This document shows, piece after piece, positions 1,652 to 52,188 of a DNA stretch of 64,000 nt. The DNA is from Chondrilla cf. caribensis. Lineage: Eukaryota > Porifera > Demospongiae > Chondrillida > Chondrillidae. The DNA lies in assembly GCA_964020155.1 (NCBI GenBank), contig OZ026554.1:1541747-1605746 (forward strand), written 5' to 3'. The number at the start of each line of letters is the position of its first letter. Positions within the stretch are counted from its first letter, which is position 1. The notes under the pieces were generated by a model. It ran no database searches and was not told where the DNA came from. It saw only the letters and a program-made list of their open reading frames with translations. Made by a program: the position numbers and the translations under genes.

Positions 1652-1661
1652 CTATAAATAG
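1652..1661 (+). promoter_or_regulatory. TATA box of gene A
   Basis: CTATAAATAG lies 89 bp before the ATG at 1750. It sits in a block (about 1600-1750) conserved almost base for base in units B and C. The transcription start is expected about 30 bp downstream, near 1682-1690. Confidence 0.7.
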
Positions 1662-1749
1662 TGGCAGAGCTCAGCAATAACCAACTCAATTCAGATCGAG
1701 AGAAGCTTGCAAACAAACAGAGAAGAAAGAACCTTCTATTACGTTGAAT

Positions 1750-2561: not shown

Positions 2562-2567
2562 TCCAAG

Positions 2568-2804
2568 GTAGGTTTGTGGTGATTGAGATGAATTCGTTTT
2601 GCATGGATTCGAAGTGCTGACAATGCACATCTTGTGACTTATCATGATCAGCACTTTTATTCCATGCATGTGTTCTACACACATACTTGGACACATATTA
2701 CGTGCAAACACACACACGCACACACACACACACACACAAACACCATACTTGCATACACATACATACCCAAACAGACACTGATATGTTCTCTTCTCTTTCC
2801 ACAG
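2568..2804 (+). other. 3'UTR intron with CA microsatellite, copy A
   Basis: Six bases after the stop codon comes a strong donor, AAG|GTAGGT. CTTTCCACAG ends at 2804, followed by exon-like AGCAGAAGG. The same donor and acceptor are kept in B and C. The intron carries a (CA)n tract (about 2707-2738). An AATAAA near 3064-3069 could end the transcript. A junction this close to the stop would not be expected to trigger nonsense-mediated decay. Confidence 0.55.
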
Positions 2805-2819
2805 AGCAGAAGGAATTAG

Positions 2820-20949: not shown

Positions 20950-21480
20950 CAGTGGGTAAAGGTCATCAAAATACATCAAATGGTAACCATAACAACCCTC
21001 AAGAGGAATGAAGCCTTTGGAAGGTTCTTCCCCACATACCATGCAGATCCTGGTTTATGCTAATGAGGGAAGTGCAGGAATCCAAGAAATGCTGTAACCT
21101 GAGCCAACCACTGTTGCTCAGCTTTGATGATTCCTAATAATACATTTTCAATTACCACCATGTGAACTCTATACTGCTTTTTACAAAACACACTGTATCA
21201 TCATCTCTGGTATACACGCGAATTATGTATATACAATATACATACAGTACATGTTATCATTCCTCATCACAGTCACTCTCACGGAACTGTGCATGTCACA
21301 TTTTCCAAATCGTATTGCTACCAGATATTTACAAAAGTTACCATTATTACAACAGTGCTGATGCTGTGTGTGTAATTCTCTGTATGATCAAATTCTCATC
21401 CTAAATACTTCCAACTGGATTACTACATGTATAAGATCTGGAAAATTGTGATTGACATGAAAATGTTAAATACCCCTAAT
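20950..21480 (+). repeat. Dispersed element (GTCATCAAAATACATC family), first tandem copy
   Basis: A block of about 500 bp starting GGTAAAGGTCATCAAAATAC and running to CAACTGGATTACTACATG. It is followed 650 bp later by a second copy (21600-22110). The same two-copy arrangement recurs at 32835 and 33485. Other whole or partial copies are at 5820, 12920, 22590, 35950 and 45160. No coding capacity is seen. Confidence 0.75.
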
Positions 21481-21599
21481 ACTACATGTGTCATAATATA
21501 AAACAGACACTGATCCAAAGCTACAGAAATCATATACCCCAGGTCATTATAACAATCAGGAATGTCCTTACAACACATCTTTATATTGGTTTAAAATAC

Positions 21600-22110
21600 C
21601 TGGGTAAAGGTCATCAAAATACATCAAATGGTAACCATAACAACCCTCATAAAAGAATGAAGCCTTTGGAAGGTTCTTCCCCACATACCATGCCTATCCT
21701 GGTTCATGCTATTAAGGAAAGTGCAGGAATCCAACAAATGCTGTAACCTGAGCCAACCACTGTTACTCAGCTTTGATGATTCCTAATAATATAATTTCAA
21801 TCACCTCCGTGTGAACTCTATACTGCTTCTTACAATACACACTATATCATCATCTCAGTCTGCAATACACCAGAAGTATGTATATATATATATATATAAT
21901 ATACAGTGTATGTTACTAAGCCTCCTCATTGCCACACTTATGGAGCTGTGCATGTCTTATTGTTCAAATCGTATTGCTACCAACTACGTATTTTATATAA
22001 ATTACATCTGTTACAACGGTGTTGATGCTCTCTGCATTGTTAAACTCTCAATCCTGAACACTTCCAACTGGATGACTACATATATAAGAAGATTGTGATT
22101 GACATAAAAA
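21600..22110 (+). repeat. Dispersed element, second tandem copy
   Basis: The same element as at 20950, with a period of about 650 bp. Its end, CAACTGGATGACTACATATA, also occurs in units A and B near 5620 and 12720. Confidence 0.75.
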
Positions 22111-24590
22111 TGTTAATAATACCCCTAATACTAGGTCTTTGTGGCATGACATGTTTGAAATCAATTAGAAATAAGGCTTTAGTCAAGAGTTCACATAGTG
22201 GTAAAATAGTGCTTGAACTATCGATTGGAAGTCATGCACACAAACTTTAACAACAGTCAAATATTTTTGCCACTTCAGCCTTAGCAGAACATGCACAGTC
22301 TTGTTAAAACTATAGGGCATGTGTGTACACTACCACATACCTTGTATATGTACATGATTATGAGCCAATCAACAAAACAAGACACTAATAGTAAATAATA
22401 CTAATCTATGCACATGAATAACAGATGAACATGGGGCAGGTCTCATATTTGATTAACAATACTAGTACATGGATAATAAGCCAAAGTTTTCCAAAACAAA
22501 TTGTGACCTATTAATTATTAGTGGGTGGTACTGTATATAGTCCCAAATAAGACTATCATAGTTCCAGCCTAACATGTTGACAGTGTATCAAATTACTTGG
22601 GTAAACGTCATGAACTACATCAAATGGTAACCATAACAACTCTCAAGAGATCTTCCCCACATACTTCGCAGCTCCTGGTTCACAATAATGAAGGAATTGA
22701 GTCCAAGAAATGCTGTAACGTGAGACAACCACTGCTTGTACTCAACTTTGAGGATTCATAATACTACAACAATTTTTAGTTACCCCTTCATGAATTCTAC
22801 TGCTTCAGCAGTGAACCCATGACATCATCATCAATATACCAAGTACACTAGTTCTGAGAGGTTCAGCATGATGTCACTGATGAAGCAGTAGAGTCTGCTT
22901 AGTGGGAAATAGTAGTATCAACCATCAAAGAGAAGAAATCTGAGCTGCTAGCAATCAACTGGAAGTCATGCACACATCATAAGACAAAGGTGAGAGAAGG
23001 CCCTCTTTGTAGCAATACACAAAATATCAGATAACCATCGCATACCACACTACAGTAGGCAGGTACTTTTCTACAATTTTCAGACCCTAGTTCATACTAA
23101 AGCTAATGAATGAAGTGATTCCAAGGATTAACTTGAACCAACAACTAGATGTTACTGGAACATCTAGTTGTTACATCTTGAAATCAATTTCATTCATTGA
23201 GTTTACCATATCAGCTGCATGAGAGGATTAGTATGTCACTGCCCAAGTAGTATAGCTCAAACTAGTTGTAAAATTATCATGATAAACCATTAATAAAAGT
23301 CAAAGATATCAGAGCTGTCAGTAATCAATTGGAAGTCAAATGTAGATCAATACCGTTGATGTAAATCACATGACTATAGTTACTGTTCATTATCAATTTG
23401 AGATTATATTAAGTACATACAGCAACCAGGGTTTGCAAAACCAAATTACAACTATATCATCCTGTTTCTAATGTTTGCCTCCCAAGTGGTATATTGTGAA
23501 TCAGATTAATACATGGATTGTGTACAGCACAGAGTTCTGCTATTCCATAACATTTGGTGCTATGTGCTCAGCAGGATGTCAATTATGGGTGTTATACTTT
23601 AACCGCGATAGGAATCAGTTTTGAACATAGATACCATGGTTCATAGTTTAACCATGTTGTACTATCCATGGTTAAGCGAACAGATCACTATGGTTACTAT
23701 ACACTGTACTATAATATGTTCAACTCACAATTCAGAATACTGGGTTGATAAGTTCCGTTCATAAATTATTGTTAGGTCCACACAGAATCCTCATAAGTGA
23801 AATCAACAGTACCATACTGCAACCATTGCTGATAGATAGGGAGATTTTCCTACATTCTCTGAGAAGCCAGTCCACTCTAACGAGGAAAGTTATTTTAGAG
23901 TCAGATGTTCAGTAGTCTTGATAACAGGATGTGGTATTGCATACGTAAGGGCTATGGGGTACTTTCAGACCCCACAAAAATTCATTAAAGAAATACTGCT
24001 TATTATGATAATTCCCAAATGACTCAACACATCTGACATACATACTAATTTTCACATTATTTTATAATTATAATATTCTGTATGTGGGTGGTCTTTGACA
24101 ATGATAGCTGTAACAGTAGTACACACTTATGATATCATCATATCTTTTGTAAACAAGAATTATGTACAATATACACACAATACATGTTAATAAGCCTCAT
24201 CTCATCACTGCCACACTCATGGAACTGTCATGTCTTATTGTTCAAATCGAACTGGTACCTGCTATTCTATAAAGGCTACAAACTGCAATTGTCACAACAG
24301 TGCCAATGCTACATGTTCTTCGCATAGTTAAATTCTCAAACCTGATTAACTCCAACTGGGTGATCATGCATGTAAGAAGATAGAGCTGAGATGAAAACAT
24401 TAACCCCTGATAGTATATATGCTCAGATGTTCGAAATCAATTAGAAATCAGGCTTTAGTGAAGCCATAGTAAAGTCTCTGTGGCAGCTGCTTACTACACA
24501 ATTTGTACTGCTTCTGCTCTCTGCAATCATTGAATATAGCAGTATTAATTTCTATAGTATCACTAGATACAAATATACTTGTGTGAGGGT
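22110..24590. other. Noncoding stretch of unit D
   Basis: Dispersed-repeat fragments only. It includes a partial copy of the hairpin (TTTGCCACTTCA) element near 22270 and the block shared with units A, B and E from 22580. No gene can be supported. Confidence 0.55.
23140..23172. repeat. Perfect 14-bp hairpin unique to unit D
   Basis: AACAACTAGATGTT, five bases, then AACATCTAGTTGTT. Units A, B and E have only the left arm followed by ACTGGACAACATC, so the right arm is a new insertion complementary to its neighbour. Confidence 0.75.
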
Positions 24591-24920
24591 CATAGCCAAC
24601 TAGTACCTGTTAAGGTGTATGTATGAATAATACATGCACCTTAACAGGCATTTAGGGAGGGAAAGTTTAGCAGTACTGGTAACTACGTCACATGTACTTT
24701 TTCGACCAATCAGATCGCTTGCATGGAATCGTTTCAAATTCACATTTTCAACATATGCAACATATTGTACGTGATAGGTTTACAGCCAGTGAGAAGGTGG
24801 GACTTGATTACTAGTGCCACCAGAGGCTACCTCCTTTACTGCACTTCCTGTATATTACGTTTGTCGGGTAGTCAATCAAGGCAGGTTAACACAAGGACTT
24901 TGGCGTTAGGGACACATTAA
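24590..24920 (+). mobile_element. Foldback-type dispersed element in unit D
   Basis: It starts with a near-palindrome (CCAACTAGTACCTGTTAAGG ... CCTTAACAGGCATTTAG). About 250 bp follow that are shared with other copies (ACCAATCAGATCGCTTG ... CAATCAAGGCAGGTTAACAC). Relatives are at 32280-32760 (inverted), 34110, 37983, 43858 and 45780. It is nonautonomous, and no transposase is seen. Confidence 0.6.
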
Positions 24921-25222
24921 TTTTATCAATCGAAAGTACAAAATCCTACTAATTTGGAATATAATAGTACGTTGTAGCATCCCAATTGGTCTCTCAAATC
25001 ATAAAGTGGAGTCCACTACACTACTACTTGTTTCTCTGAGTAGGTTTGTCCCAGGAATTTGCTTACCTGGACTCTACTGAACATGATGTATTCACTCCCT
25101 TATTTATCTCTTCTAATGGTACTGACTTGTCTATTCTCTGGCTACTTTCATTATACAATTGCATGCATACCTAAAACTATCAAATAACTGTACGCATTTG
25201 CCAAGGAAGTGCTAACCACCAA

Positions 25223-25313
25223 TTGATTGATGCATGGGACCTGACAGAAAGTAATGTTTAAAAATGAATATTTTCTTAAAACCACTTCCTGTCAGATCAC
25301 ATGCACCAATCAA
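25223..25313. promoter_or_regulatory. Promoter-proximal inverted repeat with CCAAT box (D)
   Basis: Two 25-bp arms (25223-25247 and 25289-25313), matching with a few mismatches. The right arm contains ACCAATCAAA about 45 bp before the TATA box. In unit E the arms are perfect. Confidence 0.5.
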
Positions 25314-25348
25314 ATGGCAGATAGTAGTTCTTTACTAAATGACAGAGA

Positions 25349-25358
25349 CTATAAAAGG
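25349..25358 (+). promoter_or_regulatory. TATA box of gene D
   Basis: CTATAAAAGG, 134 bp before the ATG at 25483. The block GACAGAGACTATAAAAG is shared with genes E and F. Confidence 0.75.
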
Positions 25359-25482
25359 ACTGGAAAGCTATGCATACAGCAGCAGAATCGGTTCTTGACT
25401 AAGAGAATCTTGAAACCTAAAGACATCAAGACTTCAATTCCACCAAAGAAGACAAGAATATTATTCCTATCAGCCTACCAAT

Positions 25483-27659
25483 ATGAAGGGAGCATTCTTA
25501 TTCCTACTAGCCCTGGTGCCATTCATTCTGCTGAGTACCGCAGGTATAAAGTTGATGATGTATATAATATTATAATAATTATTATTTTATTCTCTTGAGG
25601 GGACAGGGTACTGTTTTGTACATGCATGTACAGTGATATTGAAATAACATAATATATTGTTAATTTATACCTAACTGCAGATGCTAGTGGTATAGCACAA
25701 CTTGTTCCAGCAGGCAGAATCAAGTTTGGATCCTATTGCCAATGGTACTTGGGTTATGACGACTGCAATTTATGCTTTGTTGGACCCAGCCCATTACATC
25801 AGCATTGGTACTTTGTCTATGTCTCCTCAAAGCCTGGAAAATTTCTGATCGTCAGCCATCCAGTTCCTAACAAGGCGCTCAAAGTTGAATGCAATCCTTC
25901 CGGTTGCAATCTGAAAATAGTACCAATTCCTCAATTGTACAATGGCTGGGCACTTCCAGCTGGAATAGGAGATGAATATTTCTTTTGTAAAGAAGAAATA
26001 AAAGAGCTTTGTTCCATCAAAAGTGCTATCAAACCAAACCTTGCAATCACTGTCTTAAGTAATGGATCTGTAAATGTGACACAGTTTGTCAGGTCATATA
26101 ACCAGCTCTTCTGCTGTCCGGTAAGTGACATATACAACACAGCATGAAGGATTTGGTTATGTATTTGATTTGTGGTACAGTGCACCGCAAATAATCTCAG
26201 CAAATTGAATTGAAATGCAAAATATAACACTATAGTATTTGTTATATTGCAACTGACAGGCTAATACACTTCTATATACAATGTCTACACAGCACTGTGA
26301 TTCCTCATGTAAATATAATTAATAATTAGTACTGTCAATACTTAATATTATATGACATGTACAATAATATTTTATAATGCATGTACAGAAGTTTTAGTAT
26401 TCAAGATTGGTTATAATTCAAATTATTTAAGGGACGCCAGAAAAAAAAAACATATTGCATGCAACATTTGATACTGTATACGTATTTCATTTCATCTCAT
26501 TCACAGGGTGGTCCAACAGCCACACCAACACCACTTAAGGTCTGTGAAAGGCCTCTTGGATTGACACAACATGAGGTTGTGGGGAGAATCAAGAAAGCAC
26601 CTGACTGCCACCAATTCCTCGGCTACAACAACGACACTTGGGCACTGTCCCTTCAAGGACCAAGTCCTGTACATCAACACTGGTCTTTCTTTAGTGGCTC
26701 TGCATCTACTGATGGGTCATTCATGATAGCTACCTACCCAGCTCCAAACAAAGTCTTAAAAGTGGAATGTTCGGTTCCCTCCAGAAAGATTGCTTTGAGA
26801 GGAGCCGCTTCTACATCCTGTTCTCTGAAGCTAGTGAATGCGCCTTGCCCACTGGTGTATGAGACAGAATTCTGCTTTCCAGGAGAAGAGTACATGTTCA
26901 CTAAAGTCAAACCGGATGATCAAACATTCGTGATCAAGAGCGTTCTCAGACCTGATTTGGCTATCACCATTAATGCAGCTAATAATGTTCTTCTTGGCAC
27001 ATCAGGGCAGACTTTCTGCTGTCCTCCAATACAGGTTAGCATTCTGTGACTTTTATTACAATAATATTGCATTGTCTTTTTGATATTGATGTGACATATA
27101 GGATTCATACATGTCTTACACTCACTATTATGTGATAACTAGTAGATTAAGTGTAAATTTGTCTAAAAACATAACAAATTAGTTGTGATATATATGTGCA
27201 AGCTGCAGCAGGACATTATCCAAAGAAACAACCACACATCTCTCAGTGCTGTTACGGTAGTACACACAAGTACAGCTAACAGGCTACAGAAAGGCAGTAA
27301 CTGTTGCCATACTGTATCACCTTTACACAGTATAATATAATACGCTTGTGTATTAGTCTAAGTCTAAGTAATAATACACTTACCCTGCTTTATATTGTAA
27401 CAGTTCACTTAGTACTAAATTAATTCTTGGAAATGAATCAATTACCTGAATTTTTCTGAATCAGACAACATGGCATACTGTAACTTTACAATGCAATAAT
27501 GAATTATCACTGCCATAAGTATTTACATGTAAATATGCATACCATATGTTGTATAATATTACATATACTCCATTTTTATGCATACAGCCAACACCAACAG
27601 TCACTGTGGTCATTCCTACTGAAACACCCACAGTAGAGAAATACAGTGGATATCGTTGA
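25483..27659 (+). CDS. Secreted two-domain beta-trefoil-like protein, gene D
   Basis: Four exons, 25483-25543, 25681-26120, 26507-27034 and 27588-27659, with intron phases 1, 0 and 0, encode 366 residues. Residues 1-20 are a signal peptide (MKGAFLFLLALVPFILLSTA). Exon 2 encodes domain 1 (21-167): G-R-I-K-F, Q-H-W at 61-63, F-L-I-V-S-H-P...A-L-K-V and a closing L-F-C-C-P. Exon 3 encodes domain 2 (168-343), which has a Thr/Pro linker, then V-V-G-R-I, another Q-H-W, F-M-I-A-T-Y-P...V-L-K-V and Q-T-F-C-C-P. Exon 4 is a 23-residue Thr/Pro-rich tail ending YSGYR. The cysteines suggest disulfides, and domain 1 has one N-V-T sequon. Each domain fits a beta-trefoil length. The link to the A-C family rests on the shared pattern and intron position. 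A polyadenylation signal (AATAAA) is at about 28268. Confidence 0.8.
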
Positions 27660-29200
27660 AAGGGTAAAATTTACGGTATGTTAATTGTGTGACATATAAT
27701 TATGTATAGATGACCTGGCACATAGCTATCATGTGAAATGTATATTTATATCTACATGGTCCTTAGTAATTCAGAAGTTAGCCCTACATGTGGCTCATAT
27801 AATATTGTATAGTGATTCCACTGATTTCTGATAGCAGAGTGCAATACTACGTACACGATGAAGGACAATTTGATGTCATTCTGCATTAATGAACCATTTT
27901 GGTCCAGCAATTAACATCTTGCACGCATGTTGCTGGGTCACTTTAAATTCTGAACCATAATTATATGTATTGTTACAGTATTACAATCATGTATATTTTA
28001 TATGTTTTATAGATACTGGATGAAAGAAAATTCAATACTTTACTCAAGGAATAGAGCTACTACAAACTTGATCTAAATTCACGCAAATTACATGAACATT
28101 GCATCATAGGCACAGAAGTTTGTAGTCCAATAATAATATGAATCGTTACAATTCACGCCAAGTGTTAACCATTCGAAAGGTTAATTGCTTGTCTAAGACC
28201 ATCTTCATATTATAAACCTCCACTTGTAAACAAAAATTAATGTACAATGTCATAGAAATTTTAATACAATAAAATGATAATGTGGGAGTGGACCAAGTGA
28301 ACGAAACTGAATTAATTCTAATAAAACCTAACTGTTGGATGCATATGCCTGAAATGCAGAGGCCAAAACCCCACGTTGAGGCAAGGTGGAATACAGGTTA
28401 TTCTGATGTCTTACAAGTTACTACACTTGGTCCAGTAGCATTTACTTGGGCTGAGTGATTGGTACTTGGCATACGTAGCATGATGGTGAATATAATAAGT
28501 CACACAATAGGATCTCATCAGAAAACCTATAATAATTTCATATAGAGTCAATGAACACAATATGGGGGATGCCTTTTATGATTTACACTCATTATTTAAA
28601 TTCAAACTTAAATGACAAACTTAATACATTGTATTTCCTATCTATAAATTATAGTAGTTATCATCCAATGAGAGGAAGGTAGTCGTAATAGAATATGAGA
28701 CCAAAGTTGAGCCGAGATTGGCTGCCATCCGAGTAATTGGGTGATAACTATTTTGTCTTCTGTACAAAATCATGCTTACAGGATCAAACTATTGACAGCA
28801 GAGAGAAGTAAGTCAGCGACAAATGCATATCAATTATAAATAATAATAATAATAATCATATATTATATGATTTAGTTCTATTACAGGTCAACAAACAAAA
28901 CAAAGCACTAATATTAAATAATGCACTTCTATAGTATAACAGATGAACTGGGGCCGTTCTCATGCTTGATCAACACGATTTGCATGTCCAATTAAAGATA
29001 ATGATACTCCCAGTCTAATGTGATGATAGCAGATTAGCATGTCAATCATGCAACAGTGCATAATACAGATTTTGACAATTCAATCAGAAATGTTTGCAAT
29101 AAACATCTTCAGTTCTAATTATATCCTTAGGTAAAGGTTATCAAAAATAAGGGTAACCACAACAACCCTTAAGAGAAAAGTGTACAAGTGACATGTGTGA
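27660..29200. other. Noncoding stretch after gene D
   Basis: The 3'UTR, possibly with an intron (GGGTAAAATT after the stop, TTTTATAG near 28012), then AT-rich sequence with an (AAT)n run near 28840-28860. It is colinear with 40916-42550. Confidence 0.5.
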
Positions 29201-29214
29201 CTGTACAGATACTG

Positions 29215-29840
29215 CCGGAGTGCCTTACTGACCAAACAACGTCAAGCGCAAGCGCCTCAAGTTCCTAAACCCCTTGTGCTTCCACTTGCAGTGCGTCGGG
29301 CTGTATCCCCGCTGGAAATACCACCATTGGGTGTCTTCGCACTCTTCTGTTCCCTGTTAGCACGTCGTTGTAAGCATTCCAACTCCCATACCAACCTGGC
29401 CTCGCGTTCCTCCCATTTATGACACTCCTGTTCCAACACACGATACTTCTCGAGCTTGAACTCGCTCCTCTTTCCATCCTAACTCTTCTGTCGTTATTGT
29501 CTTGTTCCTGTATTCGTACGATCGTCCCTTTCTCTCTCAGCATTTCGACCTTCAACTTGCATATTCTAGCCTCCTGGCTTGTTTACAATTCCACCTGGCT
29601 ATTAGACATTGACTCTTCCCCCTCCTCGATCTCCTCTTGCTTGGCCTGGAGATCCTGTAGGGCTTGCTCATACAGCTCTCATAGCTGAGACACCTCGCCA
29701 TGGAGCTCCTGCTGTCCATTGCTGCTCGCGCCCGCTGTCTCTGCCGTCTGGCCATGGAGCCTAGCATTTTCAGGCTTTAGCCGCTCTAACTCCAACTTTG
29801 CAGTGTCCAGCGCTAGTACTAACGATTCACCCCTTGACAT
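29215..29840 (-). pseudogene. Decayed coiled-coil ORF, probably of mobile origin (unit D)
   Basis: Reading leftwards from an ATG at 29838-29840, the protein begins MSRGESLVLALDTAKLELERL. It is rich in Leu, Glu, Gln and Arg (coiled-coil-like), as in the intact ORF at 43421-43681. A TGA at 29679-29681 stands where unit E has CGA (Arg). Frameshifts follow, and conserved pieces such as KWEEREARLVWELECLQRR continue to about 29257. The segment is clearly more GC-rich than its surroundings. It could be the 5' part of a retroelement gag-like or other transposon ORF. I cannot name a family. Confidence 0.55.
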
Positions 29841-29849
29841 GCTAATTGA

Positions 29850-30420
29850 ATATAGTAGTGTTTTATAGTGTCATGACTTCTAACTGGCTGGTTTTGGCTT
29901 AATCCCTGTCCATAGGTGATATTTGGCAAAACAGTAATGTATGTGTGGTATAGGGCAGCCATTTTGTTTTTGCATCATCCCTACACATAGTACACGGTAT
30001 TATATATACACAGAGTGAGAAAACCATTATTGATTTGACACTGATGTATAGAAGACAAAAGAAGGAAAAAAACAGAAAAAACAAACAAATAAACAAATAA
30101 ACAAGAAGATTTAATCAATTTTAATGTGCATGGGTGAAATCTCAGACACATGTAGCACATTATGACATGGAGCACGTTGAAAGTGCTACACTGGCAGGAT
30201 GAAAAAAAAGAAAAATTGAGATAAAGTATAAAACAGTGAACAAAATACACATAAATAACAAATACAAGCAACAACGAATAAATGGAATTGACTACTAATA
30301 GTTACGACAACAATAACTTGCTGGGGTCCCAGCTCAGGCAATCTTTAGCCCAGAAGATGACTTGCGAAGCAGAGATGGCAATTTTTTCCTGCATCATCCA
30401 GAGTTGATAATATTGGACAG
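29850..30420. other. Noncoding stretch between unit D and the inverted block
   Basis: It begins with sequence shared with 43682-43800 (end of the duplication), followed by an A-rich tract near 30055-30110. No gene is supported. Confidence 0.5.
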
Positions 30421-32760
30421 GTAATATAGATGTACATTGCAACATGTATGCCAAGGACATATGAAATGTAGCTCGGGGGCTACATTAATCGTCACACTTT
30501 AATACTTTGTCACAAAAATCAAAATCCAGTGCTTGGATGATATACATGATAGTTGGAAATGGTGTTGTTGGGCTAGGTGACATATTGTGGACAACTTCAA
30601 TAGAAATGACTAGTCATGGAAACCTCCCTGTGGCTAATGATTTCCACTTAACCTATCCAAATATTGCGACAATCCCGATATATTATTGTGCTTTTGGTCA
30701 CTTGCAAAACAGTGTTTACATTATTATTCCATATACATGGTATTGTTCATCCATCAAAAGTAACAAATTTGCTACATGTCTTGTGGGTGTAACCATGGCT
30801 ACCATATTATATTATGATTGAATATAACATGCAAGCAGCTACTTTGTCTATGACATCCATGCATGGTGGATTTGGATCAACTGAAAAATATTATAGGGCC
30901 AAGATGAATAAATATATTGGGCCAAATTTTAAGAAAACCAATTGATACCTATCAAGGTAGAACACTCAAATCGAAGAATGGTATCTAGATGAAGGTGCGT
31001 AGTGCTTCAGCAACACTGATGAGATGAGTACGTTTAATGAATTTCTCTATAGCCACAGATTCTGAAATTTATTGCACTAAACATTTCGGCATCTGGCTGC
31101 TACCTTCACCAGTGATGCGACTACAAGAATGTATGTACATTGCATTGCAAGTGCAAGTGTGTGATAGTATGCGATGAGTGGGTGATTCATATATGAATGA
31201 TATTAAGTGTATGTCTGTTTTTGTGTTAACTTATATAGATCCAAGGGTTTTCTGTTGAAATATTGTTCTGTAAGTTGTGGGAAGTGTTCCTCTGTCTGAA
31301 TTGTCCATGACTCCAGCAGACATCACTTGGCCGAAGAATTAATATAATGTGTATAGTACTTCCATAAACCTGGGTCCATCCTATGGGTGTCCTGTCTTCT
31401 GTACATGTTCTGCTAAAGCTAAAGTGGCAAAAATTTTTGCCACTTCAGCACTGTTGATAAAGGCTGTGTGCATAACTTCCAGTAGATACTGACAGCTCAG
31501 ATTTCTGTCACTTTCATATTTACACATGCACTATCTTACCACTGTGAGAACTCTACTGCTTCAATAGTGACATCATGCCGGACCACTAAGCTGACACATG
31601 CACTAAATTCAAAAATGTAATTGATTTTACATCATGCATGTGCACATGTTGCTATTCAGTAACTGTTACAGTGGTTGGCTCTGGTTACAATGCTTTTGGA
31701 ATCACTATACTCGCAGCTCGGATTTCTGTCAGTTTGATATAGTTCATGCACATCCTACCACTGGTGAACTCTACTGCTTCAATAGTGACATCATTCTGAC
31801 CACTTAGCTGACACATGCACTAAATTCAAAAATGTGATTGATTTTACATCTTATACACATATTGTTATTCAGTAACTGTGGTTGGCTTGGGTTACAGGGT
31901 TTTGGAATCACTGTGAATACTTCAACTGCTGATTTGTCAGGTTATGTGACAGCTCAGATTTCTAAAACTATTTATCACCATGTGAACTATACAGCTTCAG
32001 CAATGACATCATGCTCAAGTAACCTCTCAGCTGATATGCTAATTGAATAATTCTGATTGATTGCACAACATGCCATTCTGATATCCAGTAACAGTTGTTT
32101 GCTCAAATTACAATGCTTTATTTATCTGATTGTACTGGATATGTCTGTTTTCTTGATGTTAACAAGTTCATACATGCAACTCACTATCCATGCATGCACA
32201 ATCCAATTCTTCATTTTTTCCCACCCTGCAGGTTGTAAAGCTTAATAATAAATTAATAATAATTTTAATAGATCTATATGTAATTAGCCAGTATTTTCAG
32301 ACAAAAGGGCTAATAATTATATATGTATTTTGTCTGGACAACGATCAATGACTATTTTTGGGCAATGTAGTAATACTGTAGATATCACTGAAGTCCTTGT
32401 GTTGACCTGTCTTGATGGGTTGCCAGAAAGTGCAGTAATTATCTAAAGGAACGTCTAGTGGCATTAGTAATCGGGTCCCACCTGTCTCATTGGCACTAAA
32501 CCTGCTGTATTGTACTGCGTTGAAAATGTAAATTTGACACTATTCCCTTCAAACAATCTGATTAGTTGAGAAGCTGAATGTGAAGTATTGCCAGTTCTTC
32601 TAAACTATCCCTCCTAAATTTTTCTCCATTGTGTTGTTTAGTGGGATGCTCATAGCCAACTAATGCCTGTTAAGGTGCATTACATGTAATGCCCATAATA
32701 CATACTCACATATTGTACATACACCTCAACAGGTACTATTTGGATATAGCTATCACATTA
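30420..32760 (-). repeat. Inverted duplicate of parts of 43.86-48.66 kb
   Basis: Read on the minus strand, 30420-30830 matches 48280-48660, 31000-31330 matches 47980-48240, 31375-32030 matches 44.8-45.1 and 47.6-47.95 kb, and 32280-32760 matches 43858-44345. The order is roughly inverted with deletions. It holds two copies of the hairpin element and one foldback element, and no gene. Confidence 0.7.
31422..31445. repeat. Perfect 24-bp self-palindrome of the hairpin element
   Basis: AAGTGGCAAAAA followed at once by its exact complement. The same hairpin, with small loops, is at 45015-45046 and 47871-47902, and in decayed form near 22270 and 35600. It lies inside a dispersed element that runs from the CATGATGTCAC motif to the ACATGTACAGAAGAC motif. 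Confidence 0.75.
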
Positions 32761-32834
32761 TATTATGTTTCTATAATCATAGGACCTTGTTCTCTCTTCT
32801 TTAGGAAGATACCAACTGAGTACATTGTCGTCTA

Positions 32835-33970
32835 CCTGGGTAAAGGTCATCAAAATACATCAAATGGTAACCATAACAACCCTCAAGAGGAATGAAGCCT
32901 TTGAAGGTTCTTCCCACATACCATGCAGATCCTGGTTCATGCTAACGAGGAACGTGCATGAATCCAAGAAATGCTGTAACCTGAGCCAACCACTGTTGCT
33001 CAGCTTTGATGATTCCTAATAATACATTTTCAATTATTACCACCATGTGAACTCTATACTGCTTCTTACAAAACACACTGTATCATCATCTCTGGTATAC
33101 ACGTGAATTATGTACTATATACAATATACATACAGTGCATGTTACTTATCCTCATCACTGCCACACTCATGGAACTGTGCATGTCACATTTTTTCAAATC
33201 GTATTGCTATCAGATATTCTACAAAAGTTACCAATGTTACAACAGTGCTGATGCTGCGTGTTCTCTGTATGATCAAATTCTCAATCCTGACTACTTCCAA
33301 CTGGATTACTACATGTATAAAATCTGGAAAATTGTGATAGACATGAAAATGTTAAATACCCCTAATACATGTGTCATAATAGAACAGACACTGATCCAAA
33401 GCTACAGGAATCATCTACCCCAGGCTTATATAACAATCAGGAATGTCCTTACAACACAACTTTATAATATTTTAAAATACCTGGTTAAAGGTCATCAAAA
33501 TACATCAAATGGTAACCATAACAACCCTCAAAAAGAATGAAGCCTTTGGAAGGTTCTTCCCCACATACCATGCAGATCCTGGTTCATACTAATGAGGAAA
33601 GTGCATGAATCCAAGAAATGCTGTAACCTGAACCAACCACTGTTGCTCAGCTTTGATGATTCCTAATAATACATTTTCAATTACCACCATGTGAACTCTA
33701 TAATGCTTCTTACAATATACTCTGTATCATCATCTCTGCAATACACAAGAATTATGTATACACAATATACAAACAGTGCATGTTACTAAGCCTCCTCACT
33801 GCCACATTCACGGAACTGTGCATGTCTTATTGTAATTGTATTGCTATCAGCTATTTTATATATTAAGTTACCTCTGTTACAACAGCGCTGATGTTTCATG
33901 CTCTCTGCATTGTTACATTCTCTATCCCTGGATATCATACATAAGAAGATTGTGATCATGACATAAAACG
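32835..33970 (+). repeat. Two tandem copies of the dispersed element in unit E
   Basis: Copies begin at about 32838 and 33487, a period of 649 bp, mirroring 20953 and 21604 in unit D. Short open frames here (for example 33103-33540) are not conserved between copies. Confidence 0.75.
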
Positions 33971-34109
33971 TTAATAAAGAATGATTGCGCAATCATAGGA
34001 CTTTTAGTATGGGACAGGTGGTTCTGTATTAGCTATAATGTCCTCCTCAAAAATATTGACCTACAATGATTCGCCCACCCATATGTCATATTTTATAAAG
34101 GATGATGGA

Positions 34110-35400
34110 CACCAATCAAAACTGGTGCATGTATGATACATGCATGAGCATGTATTAGGGGCATTCCATGTATAGCATGTATAACACATACATGCACCTT
34201 AACAGGTATTTGTTAGCTATGATCATCCATCTATGCAACACAATTGTGATAAGTATAGGGAGAGGCGGTTTAGCAGGACTTCACATGCACCTTTCAACCA
34301 ATCAGGTTGTTTGAAGGGGATTGTGTCAAATTTACATTTTCAACCTTTACAATATGAACACAGGACTTCTAGGGATATATATAACAGCATTACTGCAGTG
34401 CACAAAATAATAATTAGACATAGGTCATTGTCCAGACATAATATTATGATCGGCCATTTTGTCTGAAAATACTGGATGATTTTAGATCTATTGTAATTAT
34501 TACCATTTATTATTTAGTTTCACAATGATATGGAGAGAAATAAGAAAACATGTGGGTTTTGGTTACTGAGCTGGAAGTAATAGCTTGTTAACATCAAGAA
34601 AAACGACAATGCAGTACAGTCAGATAAATAAAGAGATTTAAACAACAAATTATCAACAATTCTACTGTCCTATAAAGTTCAATGTACGTAGCTTAAAAAC
34701 AGATTATGATGCCAAAAACTACAATACAACATAATAGAAAATGTCCTTACAATTGAATAAGTATTGTGATTCTTCAATAAAATACAGGGAATGGTAGCCA
34801 TAACAACCCTGAAGAGGAGTGATGCCTTTGACAGGACTTTCCCACATTCTTCCATCCCCTGGTTCCTACTAATCAGCACAGCGATTCCATAAAACATTGT
34901 AATTTGAGCAAACCACTGTCAGGACTTGTGGTGCAACCCAAAAATTTATTGAATTCAGTGTACATGTCAGCTGAGAGGTTGATTGAGCATGATGTCACTG
35001 CTGAAGCTGTAGGGTTCACATAGTGGTAAGATTGTGTTATGAACAACATCAAAGTGATGGAATCTGAGCTGTCTGAAATCAATTCTGAGTCATGTGTACA
35101 ACCTTTAACAACAGCAGGAGGTCATCTTCATAATAATGTAAACTTATACAACATATTATGTTGGCACATTTTGTGACCAAAATTAGGAAATGCATGAACG
35201 ATAATCAGGATTAGCCCAATCCCATTTACATGCATTCAGTGTTACATGGAGTGATAAATCTAGCTCAGCATGCCCATTTTATCTGCCTAACAATGTTGTC
35301 CATATTCGTACGTCCATAATATTTGCATACGTGAGCATGTGTTGTGGGAGTTACATTTTGTGTTAACTTGTAGGGTTCCTGTTTCATGAATATATATCAT
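34110..35400 (+). repeat. Repeat block shared with 45780-47100
   Basis: It starts in a foldback element (ACCTTAACAGGTATTTGTTAG), then about 1.2 kb colinear with 45.8-47.1 kb, including TTTGTCTGAAAATACTGG and the CAGCTGAGAGGTT/GATGTCACTGCTGAAG inverted-repeat material. It is absent from unit D, so it was inserted into E or lost from D. No gene. Confidence 0.65.
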
Positions 35401-37980
35401 TTAACCTTCAAACTAAAAATCAATCACATTTTTGAATGTAGTGCATGTGTCAGCTAAGTGGTCAGTATGATTACACTATGGAAGCAGTAGAGTTCACAGA
35501 GGTAAAATAGTGCATGAACTATATCGAAGTGACAGAAATCTGAGAGCTGTCGGCATTGATTGGAAGTCATGGAACACAAACTTTAACAACAGTGCTGAAG
35601 TGTAAACATGTTTGCCACTTCAGCCTTAGCAGAACATGTACAGTCTCTCAGTTTTACATATATACATAATACGCATATATTATGACTGTATATATATATA
35701 TGTTGTATATAAATAATATTATATTATAGTACATGATTATGAGCCAATCAACAAAACAAAACACCAATAATAAATAATACAAATTTATATACATGCATAA
35801 CAGATGAACATGGGGCAGGTCTCATATACTAGTACAAGGATAATAGGCCAAAGTTTTCCAAAACAAATTTTGGCCTATTAAGTGGGTGGTACTGTATATA
35901 TGTCCGATTAAGGCTATCATACTTCCAGCCTAAAATGTTGACAGTGTATCAAATTACTTGGGTAAACGTCATGAAATACATCAAATGGTAACCATAACAA
36001 CTCTCAAGAGATCTTCCCCACATACTTTGCATATCCTGGTTCACACTAATGAAGGAATTGAGTCCACGAAATGCTGTAACTTGAGACAACCACTGCTTAT
36101 ACTCAACATTGAGGATTCATAACACTACAACAATTATTAGCTACCCCTATGTGAACTCTATTGCTTCAGCAGTGACCCCATGACATCATCAACAATATAC
36201 CAAGTACACATGTTCTGAGAGGTTCAGCATGATGTCACTGATGAAGCAGTAGAGTCTGCTTAGTGGGAAATAGTAGTATCAATCATCAAAGAGAAGAAAT
36301 CTGAGCTGCTAGTAATCAACTGGAAGTCATGCACACATCATAAGACAAAGGTGAGAGAAGGCCCTCTTCGTAGCAATACACAAAATATCTGATAACCATT
36401 GCATACCACACTACAGTATAGGCAGGTACTTTCCTACATTTTTTCAGACCCTAGTTCATACTATAGCTAATGGAGGGAGTGATTCCAAGAACTTTATAAC
36501 TTGAACCAACAACTAGATGTTACTGGACAACATCTTGAAATCAATTTCATTCATTGAGTTTACCATATCAGCTGCATGAGAGGATTAGCATGATGTCACT
36601 GCCAAAGTACTATAGCTCAAACTAGTTGTAAAATTATCATAAACCAAAGTCAAAGGTAAGCAATTGGAAGTCAAACGCAGATCAATACCATCAATGTAAA
36701 TCACATGACTATAGCTACTGTTCATTATCAATTTGAGATAATATTAAATTATTGTACATACAGCAACCAGGGTTGGCAAAACCAAATCACATAACAACTG
36801 CGTCATCCTGCTTATAATGTTTGCCTCCCAAATGGTATATTATACAGCACAGAGTTCTGCTATTCCATAAGATTTGGTGCTATGTGTTCAGCAGGATGTC
36901 AATTATGGGTGTTATACTTTAACCGCAATAGAAATCAGTTTGACCATAGATACCATGGTTCATAGTTCAACCATGTTGTAGTATACATGGTTTAACGAAC
37001 AGATTGCAATGAAGTGAATTGGTTACCTCTGATGGCACAATGAATGCATGTATAATAGTACATAAAAAATACTGAAAACAATGTAAAAGTTTGGTTATGG
37101 TTACTGTACATTGTACTATAATATGTCCAACTCACAATTCAGAATACTGGGTTGATAAGTTCCGTTCATAAATTATTGTTAGGTCCACACAGAATCCTCA
37201 TAAGTGAAATCAACAGTATCATACTGCAACCATTGCTGATAGATGGGGAGATTTTCCTACATTCTCTGAGGAGCCAGTCCACTCTAATGAGGAACGTTAT
37301 TTTAGAGTCAGCTGTTCAGTAGTCTTGATAACAGGATGTGGTATTGCATACGTAAGGGCTATGGGGTACTTTCAGACCACACAAAAATTCATTGAAGAAA
37401 TACTGCTTATTATGATGATTCCCAAATGACTCAACACGTCTGACATACATACTAATTTTCACATTATTTTATAATTATAATATTCTGTATGTGGGAGGTC
37501 TTTGACAATGATAGCTGTTACAGTAGTACACACTTACTACATCATCATCTCTTTTATAAACAAGAATTATGTACAATATACACACAATACATGTTAATAA
37601 GCCTCATCTCATCACTGTCACACTCATGGAACTGTCATGTCTTATTGTTCAAATTGAACTGGCACCTACATGCTATTCTATAAAGGCTACAAACTGCAAT
37701 TGTCACAACAGTGCCAATGCTACATATTCTTCGCATAGTTAAATTTTCAAACCTGATTAACTCCTACTGGGTGATCATGCATGTAAGAAGATAGAGCTGA
37801 GATGAAAACATTAACCCCTGATAGTATATATGCTCAGATGTTCGAAATCAATTAGAAATCAGGCTTTAGTGAAGCCATAGTAAAGTCTCTGTGCCAGCTG
37901 CTTACTACACAATTTGTATTGCTTCTGCTCTCTGCACTATAGCAGTATTAATTTTTATAGTATTACTAGATACAAATATA
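35400..37980. other. Noncoding stretch of unit E
   Basis: A hairpin-element fragment at 35420-35660, then sequence colinear with 22330-24590. About 60 bp near 37005-37080 are extra relative to D. No gene is supported. Confidence 0.55.
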
Positions 37981-37982
37981 AT

Positions 37983-38330
37983 TGTGTGAGGGTCATAGCC
38001 AACTAGTACCTGTTAAGGTGTTTATGTATGAATAATACATGTACCTTAACAGACATTTAGGGAGGACAAGTTTAGCAGTACTGGTAACTACGTCACATGT
38101 ACTTTTTCGACCAATCAGATCGCTTGCATGGAATCGTTTCAAATTCACATTTTCAACATATGCAACAATATTGTACGTGATAGGTTTACAGCCAGTGAGA
38201 AGGTGGGACTTGATTACTAGTGCCACCAGAGGCTACCTCCTTTACTGCACTTCCTGTACAGTATATTACATTCGTCGGGTAGTCAATCAAGGCAGGTTAA
38301 CACAAGGACTTTGGCGTTAGGGACACATTT
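37983..38330 (+). mobile_element. Foldback-type dispersed element in unit E
   Basis: The orthologous position and sequence to 24590-24920, so it was present before the D/E duplication. Confidence 0.6.
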
Positions 38331-38632
38331 ATCAATCGAAAGTACAAAATCCTACTAATTTGGATTATAATAGTACGTTGTAGCATCCCAATTGGTCTCT
38401 CAAATCATAAAGTGGAGTCCACTACACTACAACTTGTTTCTCTGAGTGGATTTGTCCCAGGAATTTGCTTACCTGCATGGACTCTACTGAACATGACATA
38501 TTCACTCCCTTATTTATCTCTTCTAATGGTACTGACTTGTCTATTCTCTGGCTGCTTTCATTATACAATTGCATGTATACCTAAAACTATCAAATAACTG
38601 TACACATTTGCCAAGGAAGTGCTAACCACCAA

Positions 38633-38715
38633 TTGATTGGTGCATGTGACCTGACAGAAAGTAATGTTTAAAAATGAATAAAACCACTTCCTGTCAGGTC
38701 ACATGCACCAATCAA
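38633..38715. promoter_or_regulatory. Promoter-proximal perfect inverted repeat with CCAAT box (E)
   Basis: Two exactly complementary 25-bp arms (38633-38657 and 38691-38715) around a 33-bp loop. The right arm ends in ACCAATCAA, 36 bp before the TATA box. Gene F keeps only the right-arm sequence (about 49051-49075). Confidence 0.65.
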
Positions 38716-38750
38716 ATGGCAGGTAGTAGTTCTTTACTAAATGACAGAGA

Positions 38751-38760
38751 CTATAAAAGG
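38751..38760 (+). promoter_or_regulatory. TATA box of gene E
   Basis: CTATAAAAGG, 134 bp before the ATG at 38885, the same spacing as in gene D. Confidence 0.75.
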
Positions 38761-38884
38761 ACTGGAAAGCTATGCATACAGCAGCAGAATTGGTTCTTGA
38801 CTAAGAGAATCTTGAAATCTAAAGACATCAAGACTTCAATTCCATCAAAGAAGACAAGAATTTCATTTCTATCAGCCTACCAAT

Positions 38885-40915
38885 ATGAAGGGAGCATTCT
38901 TATTCCTACTAGCCCTGGTGCCATTCATTCTGCTGAGTACCGCAGGTATAAAGTTGATGATGTATGTATAATAATTATTGTTTTAATATTCTCTTGAGGG
39001 GACAGGGTACTGTTTTGTACATGCATGTATGTATACAGTGATATTGAAATAACATATATAATATCATTAATTTTATACCTAACTGTAGATGCCAGTTGTA
39101 TAACAACACTTGTTCCAGCAGGCAGAATCAAGTTTGGATCCAATTGCCAATGGTTCTTGGGTTATGACAACAGTGATTTATGCTTTGTTGGACCCAGCCC
39201 ATTACATCAGAACTGGTACTTCGTCTATTTCTCCTCAAAGCCTGGACAATTTATGATCGTCAGTCATCCAATTCCTAATAAGGCACTCATAGTTGAATGC
39301 ACACCTTCCTGCATTTGCAAACTGAAAATAGTACCAATTCCTCAATTGTACCCTGGCTGGGCATGTCCAGCTGGAATAGGATGTGAATATTTCTTCACTA
39401 AAGAAGTCAAAGGAGCACTTATTGCCATCAAAAGTGTTATCAAACCTTGCAAGCATTCAATCACTGTCTTAAGTAATGGATTTGTTAATGTGACACAGTT
39501 TGTCGGCTCATATAACCAGCTCTTCTGTGAATGTCCGGTAAGTGACATATACAACACAGCATGAAGGATTTGGTTATGTATTCGATTTGTGGTACAGTGC
39601 ACTGCAAATAATGTCAGCAAATTGAATTGAAAATGCAAAATATAACATTAAGTTTACTTTCAAGATTGTTTATAATTCAAACTATTAAGGGTTGTCAGAA
39701 AAAAACCATCATATTTCATCATTTGATACTGTATACATATTTCATTTCATCTCATTCACAGAATGATCCAATAGTCACACCAACACCTAAGGTCTGTGAC
39801 AGGCCTCTTGGATTGACACAACATGAAGTTGTTGGGAGAATCAAGAAAGCACCTGACTGCCACCAATTCCTCGGCTACAGCAACTACACTTGGGCACTGT
39901 CCCTTCAAGGACCAAGTCCTGTACATCAACACTGGTCTTTCTTTAGTGGCTCTGCATCTACTGATGGGTCATTCATGATAGCTACCTACCCAGCTCCAAA
40001 CAAAGTCTTAAAAGTTGAATGTTCGGTTCCCTCCAGAAAGATTGCTTTGAGAGGAGCCGCTTCTACATCCTGTTCTCTGAAGCTAGTGAATGCGCCTTGC
40101 CCACTGGTGTATGAGACAGAATTCTGCTTTCCAGGAGAAGAGTACATGTTCACTAAAGTCAAACCGGATGGTCAAACATTCGTGATCAAGAGCGTTCTCA
40201 GACCTGATTTGGCTATCACCATTGATGCAGCTAATAATGTTCTTCTTGGCACATCAGGGCAGACTTTCTGCTGTCCTCCAATACAGGTTAGCATTCTGTG
40301 ACTTTTATTACAATAATATTGCATTGTCTTTTTGATATTGATGTGACATATAGGATTCATACATGTCTTACACTCACTATTATGTGATAACTAGTAGATT
40401 AAGTGTAAATTTGTCTAAAAACATAACAAATTAGTTGTGATATATATGTGCAAGCTGCAGCAGGACATTATCCAAAGAAACAACCACACATTGTACTCTC
40501 AGTGCTGTTACGGTAGTACACACAAGTACAGCTAACAGGCTACAGAAAGGCAGTAACTGTTGCCATACTGTATCACCTTTACACAGTATAATATAATATG
40601 CTTGTGTATTAGTCTAAGTCTAAGTAATAATACACTTACCCTGCTTTATATTGTAACAGTTCACTTGGTACTAAATTAATTCTTGGAAATGAATCAATTG
40701 CCTGAATTTTTCTGAATCAGACAATATGGCATACTGCAACTTTACAATGTAATAGTGAATTATCACTGCTATATGTATTTACATGTAAATATGCATACCA
40801 TATGCTGTATAATATTACATATACTCTATTTTTATGCATACAGCCAACACCAACAGTCACTGTGACCATTCCTACTGAAACACCCACAGTAGAGAAATAC
40901 AGTGGATATCGTTGA
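38885..40915 (+). CDS. Secreted two-domain beta-trefoil-like protein, gene E
   Basis: Exons 38885-38945, 39089-39537, 39762-40286 and 40844-40915 (phases 1, 0, 0) encode 368 residues. The signal peptide is identical to that of gene D. Domain 1 (21-170) keeps the frame G-R-I-K-F...F.I-V-S-H-P...A-L but has Q-N-W instead of Q-H-W at 61-63. It also has different cysteines: A-S-C-I, W-A-C-P, G-C-E-Y and K-P-C-K are new, while D's D-D-C, F-F-C and E-L-C are absent. Domain 2 (171-345) and the Thr/Pro tail (346-368, ending YSGYR) differ from D at only a few residues. Intron 2 is about 160 bp shorter than in D. The role is inferred as extracellular binding. Confidence 0.8.
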
Positions 40916-49240: not shown

Positions 49241-52188
49241 ATGAAGGGAGCATTCCTATTCGTAGTGGCCTTGGTGTCATTTACTCTGCTGCGTACCACA
49301 GGTATACTTGAAGTTGTGGTGTATACGTTCAAATTCTTTGAGGGGACTGGGTACCATGCATATTTTGCACCATATGCATGTACAATGATAATGATTCAGA
49401 ATTACTTTCTTTCTATCACCTAACTGTAGATGCTGGTACAACAACGCTGATTCCTGAAGGCAGAATTAAGTTTGGACCAGGTTGTAGACTGTTCTTGACT
49501 TACGACAGGTGGAATCGCCTGTCCTTTGCTGGACCTAGTCCAACGATGCAGCACTGGTACCGTGCCTATGACTCCTCAAGGCCTGGCAAATTTATGCTTG
49601 TCAGTCATCCAGTTCCTGTCAAGGCACTCAGAGTTGGGTGCAGCTCCTTTGGTTGTAGCCTGTACCTGGTGTCTCTTACTCAGTTGCACAATGGTGGAAC
49701 ATTCCCAGCTGGGCTGGGAAATGAATATTTCTTCACTAAAGAGGTGAAAGGGAGTATGTTTGCACTCAAAAGTGTTCTCAAACCAACTCTTGCAATGACT
49801 GTCATGGGCTCTGGATCGGTTGGTGTTTCAAATTATGTATACTCACCTAACCAGTTCTTCTGTGGTCCTAAAGTAAGTGACTGCACGTTTCACATTGTAC
49901 TTCACACATATACATGCATACATGCAATGTCATAGACTGAGTATTGTTTTTGCCATTCAGCAGTGAAAGTATTGGGAATAATGTCCCTCAACTGGGTACA
50001 TAATATTAATTATAAGTTTATATTTTGTTACAGTATCTGAATGCCTGAATATATAATATGATTCTTAATACTCAGTGTATGCCACACAATGCTTTCTAGT
50101 AGACATGTACATGCATGAGTTAGCACATATAGTAGTGTTTACATACATAATTTTAAAAAGGTACCCTGCATTTAGTTTTAACACGTCTTAGAGTGTACTG
50201 CAGCTATAATAATTATTATTATGAATGTACACATCAGGTAACTGTATTATCTGCACACGTATGAACACATTATAGTGATATACCCTCCATGATTCACTCA
50301 TGATTGCAATTGAATGTAAAATATTTCCAAGACAACTTACATTGAATTCCCCATACATGCAATGCACAATCAAGGTTTGGAGTAAATGAAGTGTCCATCA
50401 TGTGTATAGGATGATCGTTATGATGAATCATGTTTTGATCATTCCTTATTACAATGTTGTATGCATTGATCGGAACAAGTTCAGTATTATAATCAAGTGT
50501 ATAACAATGTAGCACAATCATACAGATTGTAGTTAGGGTGTTGGGTGGATCCCTCATGATAACAGCACTAATCATGATGAAGGTTCCATGTTGCCTGCCA
50601 GATTACACCAACTAATGCTTGTATACAGCTGATATAATTCTAATATTACATTGATTACATATAATATTATGCATACAATATGCCATCTTAGGTATACAAT
50701 GTTACAACTACATCAGGTGGATCATGCTCCGGAGTGTCTCTCGGGTTGACTCGACAAGAGGTTGTGGGGAGAATCAAGAAAGCACCTGACTGCAACAAAT
50801 TTCTTGGCTATGATGATGATACTTGTGATCATGAGATATCACTTCAAGGACCAAGTCCTGTACGTCAACACTGGTCTTTCTTCAGTGGTTCTACATCTAC
50901 TGATGGGTCATTCATGATAGCTACCTACCCAGCTCCAAATAAAGTCTTAAAAGTTGAATGCATTACACGAGGGATTGTTTTGAAAGGTAAAACTGAATCT
51001 ACTACAATCTGTTTTCTGAAGTTGGTGAACGCACCATGTTCTCTGATGTACAACACACCATTCTACCATCCCGGGAATGCATACTTGTTCACCAAGGTCA
51101 AATACGCCAGCGGTACATTTGCCATTAAGAGTGTTCTCAGACCGGACTTAGCCATCACAGTGAACGTAGACAACAGCATCGACATCCTCACCCAGCTCAT
51201 CCCCAAAGCAGAACAGCTCTTTTGTGAGCATGAGGTTAGTATGTATGTCTCTTTAACTTACATTAATCAGACTGAGTCTCAAAGGCATGCAAATATAATT
51301 ATGAATATAACAAAAGTATAGAATTATTCAGAGATATCTGATAGTGTATAGATGAATGCCTCTACACGATATAGCTCACTTGTCAATTGTACCATCCACA
51401 CAGTATACAGTCGCTTATAAAAGTATTATAATATCTATACTAACAATAGATATACAATAACACAAATTTGATAATTATAATTGTTATAATTTTTATTCTT
51501 CTTTGCATGTGTCTCTCAGAGCAATTGTACCTGCAAGAAATTGCCAGGACGGGTGATTTTCAAAGCTGATCTTACAACTGGGAGTACTTCGATACCATCA
51601 TATACTGGAACTGGAGTCAGAGTGTCTTGGGTGTCACCACTATCTGGACACAGTGCACCGTCCAGCAAACAAGGAGTGATAAAGTTAACCTTCCCAAATC
51701 CTGTTGGTGGAAAACAGAGGTACTGCCTCGTGTTCGACCTATACCTGCAAAAAGATCCCAGGAGGTGGGCCTTCAACATTGGTGACTCGACCAATAATGG
51801 ATATGGAGGAGATGCAGGGACAACCTCCAATGCCGCAGAGGTTCACAATATAGGCAATTCCTGGTTTGTGTACTCCAACAATCTTCCTGGTTATGGAAGC
51901 TATGCAGGCAGTAGTACACTACTTGTGGAGAGTCTGTCGAATGTCATAACAGACCACGTCACACTGACCATTGGTGACGAGTATGTTGAATTTGACAACA
52001 ACCAAGGGGTGCAGAAATGCTACAGCAGCAAGTATCTGTTCACACTCAGTGGACAAACCCCTACATATGGAGTGGTGAACTACGACATATTTTTCGCCTT
52101 GAATCGTGTCATCAGGTACCGTTCTGATAGAACTGGACCAGGGCTGTCCAGAGCTATCATCAGAGAAGTCGAGTGCTGTGCCAAGTAG
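49241..52188 (+). CDS. Secreted two-domain beta-trefoil-like protein with extra C-terminal domain, gene F
   Basis: Exons 49241-49301, 49430-49872, 50692-51234 and 51520-52188 (phases 1, 0, 0) encode 571 residues. Residues 1-20 are a signal peptide. Domain 1 (21-168) has G-R-I-K-F, Q-H-W and A-L-R-V. Domain 2 (169-349) has V-V-G-R-I-K-K, Q-H-W, V-L-K-V-E and I-K-S-V-L-R-P. Exon 4 encodes 222 residues unlike the 23-residue tail of D and E. This part begins S-N-C-T-C-K, contains G-D-S-T-N-N-G-Y-G-G-D and many Ser/Thr/Gly/Val/Tyr, and ends E-C-C-A-K. It is probably a beta-sandwich, which I do not recognise. Sequons include N-V-T in the linker and N-C-T at the start of exon 4. It is the most complete architecture in the cluster. 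Confidence 0.8.

Follow-up and report, generated by a model that had tools for sequence, protein, structure and literature searches.

The window analysed here is a stretch of 64,000 nucleotides from the demosponge Chondrilla cf. caribensis (assembly GCA_964020155.1, contig OZ026554.1, positions 1,541,747 to 1,605,746 of the forward strand), and the genes in question are two intact tandem paralogues within it, designated D and E, which were compared with each other and with an older paralogue, gene F, as the outgroup. Judged from their sequence, D and E encode secreted proteins with two homologous domains, one in exon 2 and the other in exon 3. Structural modelling predicted a β-trefoil fold for the first domain of both proteins. 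No Pfam family reached its cut-off with the D and E domains. R-type (ricin B) β-trefoil lectins contain by definition three QxW repeats per domain, whereas the translations of D and E contain one per domain, either QHW or QNW. Among the matches listed, structures of β-trefoil lectins (R-type, HA33 and CBM42) and of the IL-1 fold were 8-16% identical to the D/E domain, and a search of the literature for this gene family returned no title on it among the matches listed. The modelled fold suggests that the products are lectin-like, secreted proteins of trefoil type.

Exon 2 of D and E differed at 55 of 439 aligned bases and by three 3-base indels when aligned as DNA, and the encoded proteins differed at 33 of 146 aligned amino acids. 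The corresponding figures were 12 of 524 for exon 3, counted from position 26508 (the first base of the exon, 26507, differs too), and 11 of 553 for intron 3. The counts vary with the alignment, being 55 (DNA) or 56 (protein-guided) for exon 2 and from 12 to 14 for exon 3. In the divergence profiles columns adjacent to gaps were dropped, five on either side in the D/E exon and intron profile and in the A-B profile described below, and four in the change-point, core/flank, A-C and B-C counts. An earlier reading of the letters alone (the sequence-only reading) had reported dozens of differences in exon 2 against about 15 of 525 bases in exon 3 and a near-identical intron 3, in agreement with these counts, and the replacements that it quoted (DCN to NSD, QHW to QNW, ALP to ACP and GDE to GCE) were all present. 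Its statement that nearly all changes in exon 2 alter amino acids was too strong, since 9 of the 42 differing codons are silent, and intron 1, said to differ mainly by indels, also contains substitutions (7 of 94 sites away from gaps). The densest 430-site window in the 4,047-site core (23689-28200) contained 56 differences compared with a maximum of 38 in 2,000 permutations.

Alignment of the two units with divergence plotted in windows, as had been proposed with the sequence-only reading, resolved five segments with divergences of 7.7, 3.0, 11.7, 1.9 and 9.9% (Table 1). The central block, which contains exon 2, is bordered by two arms of low divergence, and outside 23689-28500 the flanks of the units differed at 305 of 3443 sites (8.9%). 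The right arm is itself tiered, with 4 differences in 750 sites beside 23 in 663 (P = 5e-5). Intron 2 differs little in the first 116 bp, which adjoin exon 2, and considerably in its 3' part, the two being separated by a 152-bp length difference; differences in exon 3 are concentrated in the first 133 nucleotides, after which the rate falls (Table 1). A mobile element was considered as the source of the 152-bp length difference and rejected, the sole match in the genome being the segment itself. At 51/410, exon 2 was more divergent than the initial stretch of intron 2 next to it (3/99; P = 0.0055), and the introns within the block taken together (26/287) were at the level of the outer flanks (P = 0.91). 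The proposals that exon 2 alone had diverged, and faster than its own introns, were accordingly sustained in part: the contrast with exon 3, intron 3 and the first part of intron 2 stands, whereas divergence is also high in the outer flanks, at the beginning of exon 3 and over the 3' part of intron 2, and the introns of the block match those flanks. The exon 2 block thus has roughly the divergence of the DNA around the unit, and what stands out is the low divergence of the gene's two arms.

Table 1. Segments of the D/E comparison and gene models, with positions numbered from the first base of the window. Divergences are between D and E and segment limits are from change-point analysis.
Feature	Position	Strand	Remarks
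Outer left flank of D unit versus E unit	20953..23723		7.7%
Left arm, putatively homogenised	23724..25558		3.0%
Divergent block in D	25559..26585		11.7%; partner in E at ~38961-39837, read off the alignment
Right arm, putatively homogenised	26586..28198		1.9%; 26640-27399 only 4/750
Outer right flank of D unit versus E unit	28199..29987		9.9%
Gene D exon 1, putative signal peptide MKGAFLFLLALVPFILLSTA	25483..25543	+	identical in E; read from sequence
Gene D exon 2, first domain, predicted β-trefoil	25681..26120	+	divergent exon
Gene D intron 2	26121..26506	+	first 116 bp 3/99; 26237-26388 (152 bp) absent from E; 3' part (26389-26506) 16/94
Gene D exon 3, second domain, sequence homologue of exon 2	26507..27034	+	first 133 nt 10/120 versus E, remainder 3/395
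Gene D exon 4, short C-terminal tail and stop	27588..27659	+	D protein 366 aa
Gene E exon 1, putative signal peptide	38885..38945	+
Gene E exon 2, first domain, diverged from D	39089..39537	+	confident AlphaFold model, strands like those of D
Gene E exon 3	39762..40286	+
Gene E exon 4 and stop	40844..40915	+	E protein 368 aa
Gene F exons 1 to 3, older paralogue, outgroup	49241..51234	+	exon 1 49241-49301, exon 2 49430-49872, exon 3 50692-51234

Synonymous sites were used to distinguish selection on amino acids from a difference in age. Counting by the NG86 method gave a synonymous divergence (dS) of 0.173 and a non-synonymous divergence (dN) of 0.132 for exon 2, and 0.033 and 0.025 respectively for exon 3, with a dN/dS of 0.76 for both exons. 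By maximum likelihood, dN/dS was 0.78 in exon 2 (twice the log-likelihood difference from a ratio of 1, 2ΔlnL, was 0.5) and 0.97 in exon 3, and both estimates are indistinguishable from 1. Synonymous divergence in exon 2 was approximately fivefold that in exon 3 and, in odds, sevenfold that over the core. The synonymous differences in exon 2 (14/94) exceeded the homogenised core (82/3207) with P = 3e-7, the comparison with the outer flanks (305/3443) giving P = 0.064, and the nine silent-only codons by themselves exceeded intron 3 (P = 0.0008). The dS between D and F was no higher for exon 2 (0.75) than for exon 3 (1.06), which indicates that synonymous change is not especially fast in exon 2. 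A two-by-two test of the Hudson-Kreitman-Aguadé type, in which synonymous changes between D and E and between D and F were compared for exons 2 and 3, gave P = 0.004. Thus the silent sites of exon 2 are raised too, and the divergence is not explained by selection on amino acids alone.

Changes in exon 2 cluster within codons, 14 codons containing more than one change compared with 6.4 expected (P = 0.0008). With the topology of five sequences fixed, dN/dS was 0.855 on the D and E branches and 0.387 elsewhere (2ΔlnL 5.3, 1 degree of freedom, P = 0.02), and overlapping windows in the second half of exon 2 gave local point estimates of 1.1-1.5. The sequence-only reading had offered diversifying selection as one of two causes, with dN/dS of the separate exons as the measure. 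What remains of that proposal is the higher ratio on the D and E branches (0.86 against 0.39) and the excess of cysteine gains described below; the ratios of the exons themselves do not favour it, that of exon 2 being indistinguishable from 1, not above it and equal by counting to that of exon 3, with dS raised.

The second cause offered was a conversion in which another paralogue had replaced one of the two copies of exon 2. Among the best-scoring candidates in this assembly, no closer donor was found for exon 2 of either gene or for the interval 26389-26640. The best non-self match of each exon 2 was its partner (86%), followed by F (70-71%) and by genes on contig C4 (68-72% over shorter stretches), results which do not bear out the replacement. 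Comparison was extended to other assemblies with 11 of the 15 proteins found, P0001, P0007, P0009 and P0014 being excluded as apparent copies of sequences in the window or on C4; P0015 was too short for the tree of the C-terminal half and was omitted from it. The 30-kb region containing D and E appears to be present in other assemblies, on contigs of 1.33, 1.46, 2.12 and 5.72 Mb. In the shared part of the proteins, D and E differed at 22 of 92 residues in exon 2 and 2 of 122 in exon 3, whereas D differed from P0011 and P0003, which are encoded on a 5.72-Mb contig of another assembly and appear to come from one genome, at 29 of 92 and 20 of 121 residues (Fisher P = 0.006 for the contrast with D-E). 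The protein rate of exon 2 relative to exon 3 is therefore about 2x between genomes and approximately fifteenfold between D and E, an excess attributable to recent homogenisation of exon 3. P0012 is about as far from the exon 2 domains of D (D2, 23/92) and E (E2, 24/94) as these are from each other, with branching supports of 44 and 57. Of the 33 residue changes in exon 2, 9 were placed on the D branch, 12 on the E branch and 12 on neither. In another assembly the counterpart (P0006) of the E exon 2 domain encoded at 39091-39537 has 4 differences among 149 residues, one of them aspartate for cysteine 98, which indicates that this domain varies between genomes.

The exon 2 domain contains 9 cysteines in D and 11 in E; F and the two C4 domains have 4 to 5. 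Seven gains were placed in aligned codons (three in D and four in E) and one more in an inserted codon of E, the sites differing between D and E. The gained residues are C28, C102 and C110 in D and C3, C74, C92, C98 and C120 in E. In post hoc tests, the seven gains exceeded the 1.64 obtained by simulation (P = 0.0008) and the share of cysteine-involving differences among all differences gave P = 0.006.

A second tandem array in the window, comprising genes A, B and C (1900-2561, 8960-9566 and 15215-15805), also encodes proteins with the QHW motif and served as a control. The A-B comparison showed no exon peak; divergence was 1.8-6.1% per 250-bp window from 1639 to 6888, the last window (3/39) being omitted from the profile, and 10-13% upstream at 889-1638. 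In the A-C and B-C comparisons the coding windows reached 8-9% in places, and values further downstream rose to 15-19%. The dN/dS ratios were 0.42 for A-B, 1.0 for A-C and 0.92 for B-C.

Further features were observed in the neighborhood and on other contigs. Directly 3' of exon 3 of gene F lies an open frame of 232 amino acids (51490-52188) with no Pfam match at an E value of 1, which could belong to F as an additional exon or to a separate gene. The tandem genes on contig C4 that carry the trefoil-type domain are L025 (5572-6087, minus strand) and L024 (6346-7026, minus strand); long frames near them resemble what we take to be von Willebrand A domains, and the trefoil-type domain may be combined with other domains on that contig. 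Three cysteine-peptidase-like frames inspected on contigs C3 and C6 (L027, L030 and L031) have serine at or near the usual place of the catalytic cysteine (GQMGQSF, GQIGDSL), and a search of the genome for cysteine-peptidase homologues returned ordinary peptidases besides these serine-bearing frames. The serine is suggestive of sponge silicateins, a resemblance that was given no weight as evidence. Frames at 59764-61045 on the minus strand may encode a protein resembling aldonolactone (gulonolactone-type) oxidase.

The explanation that we consider probable is an old tandem duplication giving D and E, followed by interlocus gene conversion that homogenised the core of the gene and spared a block of approximately 1 kb around exon 2, most likely through selection. 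A unit of roughly 13.4 kb would have been duplicated in tandem, and the copies would have diverged to about 10%. Conversion in several tracts of different age would later have homogenised the region from upstream of the gene to intron 1, and that from exon 3 to the 3' flank, to 0.5-3%, with the block containing exon 2 retaining the old divergence. Conversions overwriting exon 2 would have been disfavoured if the first domains of D and E are functionally distinct. We infer that conversion produced the tiers of divergence, and the unequal tiers of the right arm suggest several conversion events of different age there. Since the introns of the block match the outer flanks, dS is raised, the comparison with F indicates a normal clock and no donor was found, exon 2 appears to have kept about the divergence of the original duplication. 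We further infer that exon 2 was kept apart by selection and not by chance, selection on the first trefoil domain being a plausible reason for the sparing; its role is likely to be modest and not a simple effect on rate. A more specific proposal is that the first trefoil domain is a recognition surface kept apart between the copies by selection against ongoing conversion, and that it diversifies by cysteine gains at different sites (three in D and five in E including the inserted codon), that is, by rewiring of disulphides; we regard this as doubtful.

Several results weigh against the explanation by duplication, conversion and selective sparing. The whole block (90/770) diverged slightly more than the outer flanks (305/3443; P = 0.017), as did exon 2 alone (P = 0.024), so that a shared age with the flanks can account for the block only in combination with faster replacement of amino acids, and this excess slightly lowers our confidence. 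The block extends past exon 2 to include intron 1 (7/94), the 3' part of intron 2 (16/94) and the beginning of exon 3. It also contains the 152-bp length difference, which could itself block conversion and permit sparing by chance. A dN/dS significantly above 1 was sought as the average over the whole of exon 2 and was not found, and the local value of 1.5 for codons 90-126 is a point estimate only. The ratios of 0.42 to 1.0 among A, B and C indicate that D and E are not alone in having a ratio close to 1. The looser, post hoc count of differences involving a cysteine gave P = 0.033, and all of the cysteine tests were devised after the sequences had been seen. Finally, all of the DNA is from one assembly, in which ongoing conversion and selection are inseparable.

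The same history of conversion could have left exon 2 untouched with no selection needed if tracts happened to end on either side of it and the length difference in intron 2, together with the divergence, hindered heteroduplex formation. The non-coding DNA of the block and the adjoining start of exon 3, the length difference and a dN/dS not different from 1 are all consistent with this account, for which the GOT1Sd/GOT1Sr pair discussed in PMC3728101 provides an indel-driven precedent. It does not readily accommodate the low divergence of the first 116 bp of intron 2, which lie between exon 2 and the length difference (3/99; P = 0.044 compared with the outer flanks), the dN/dS of the D and E branches above background or the excess of cysteine gains, and we consider it rather unlikely, although it is the strongest of the alternatives. 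Alternatively, one exon 2 block may have been imported, through conversion or recombination, from a source since lost or outside this assembly, either a divergent haplotype or a third paralogue. An import would raise synonymous and non-synonymous divergence together and leave sharp edges, the near-trichotomy of D2, E2 and P0012 makes a third lineage conceivable, and the slightly higher divergence of the block than of the outer flanks points the same way. This alternative is nevertheless improbable, given that no closer copy was found among the best-scoring candidates in the genome, that changes lie on both branches, and that an extra event is required when the outer flanks are already nearly as deep. 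Diversifying selection that simply accelerated exon 2 in copies of one young age would account for the number of residues that differ, the local point estimates in the second half of the exon and the raised branch ratio. Such pure acceleration was rejected, since neither the synonymous sites nor the comparison with F agrees with it: dS in exon 2 is far above that of exon 3 and of the core, the overall dN/dS is 0.76, and non-coding DNA in the block and the outer flanks diverged as well. We give it almost no credence.

In RHCE and RHD, according to a model reportedly proposed by Innan in 2003, selection keeps two duplicates apart against conversion; these genes specify blood-group antigens, whereas D and E encode predicted secreted trefoil-type proteins. 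The human red and green opsin genes are likewise tandem duplicates held similar by conversion with a peak of divergence in one exon, and the high divergence of exon 5 between introns of low divergence was read by Teshima and Innan as selection restricting conversion, as presented in PMC3924837. Unlike opsin exon 5 as described there, the D/E block extends over intron sequence and into the exon that follows, and the DNA compared for D and E is from one assembly. Paralogues of GOT1 in the copepod Tigriopus show islands of divergence amid converted sequence, for which accounts based on indels that block conversion and on selection are both discussed in PMC3728101; the coding sequences of GOT1p1 and GOT1p2 described there are without introns, unlike D and E. 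The D/E pair resembles an island of divergence of the Teshima-Innan type in that the arms of tandem duplicates are far more similar than the island (3.0 and 1.9% compared with 11.7%) and in that the duplication is older than the similarity of the arms, as indicated by the outer flanks at 8.9% and the protein comparison with the other contig. As to whether the island is centred on selected sites, the branch dN/dS and the cysteine gains are raised, yet dN/dS is not above 1 and the block exceeds the exon. As far as the divergence profile goes, D and E would therefore belong with the known islands of divergence under interlocus conversion.

The results also call for caution in that an exon apparently outpacing its introns can reflect young introns, a distinction for which synonymous sites and outer flanks are informative. 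Should cysteine gain have contributed as proposed, a lectin-like domain would have diversified in an unusual way. Overall, if the explanation holds, D and E would represent a clean natural case in which conversion homogenises a tandem pair except around one protein domain, and the functionally important domain could be read from the divergence profile.

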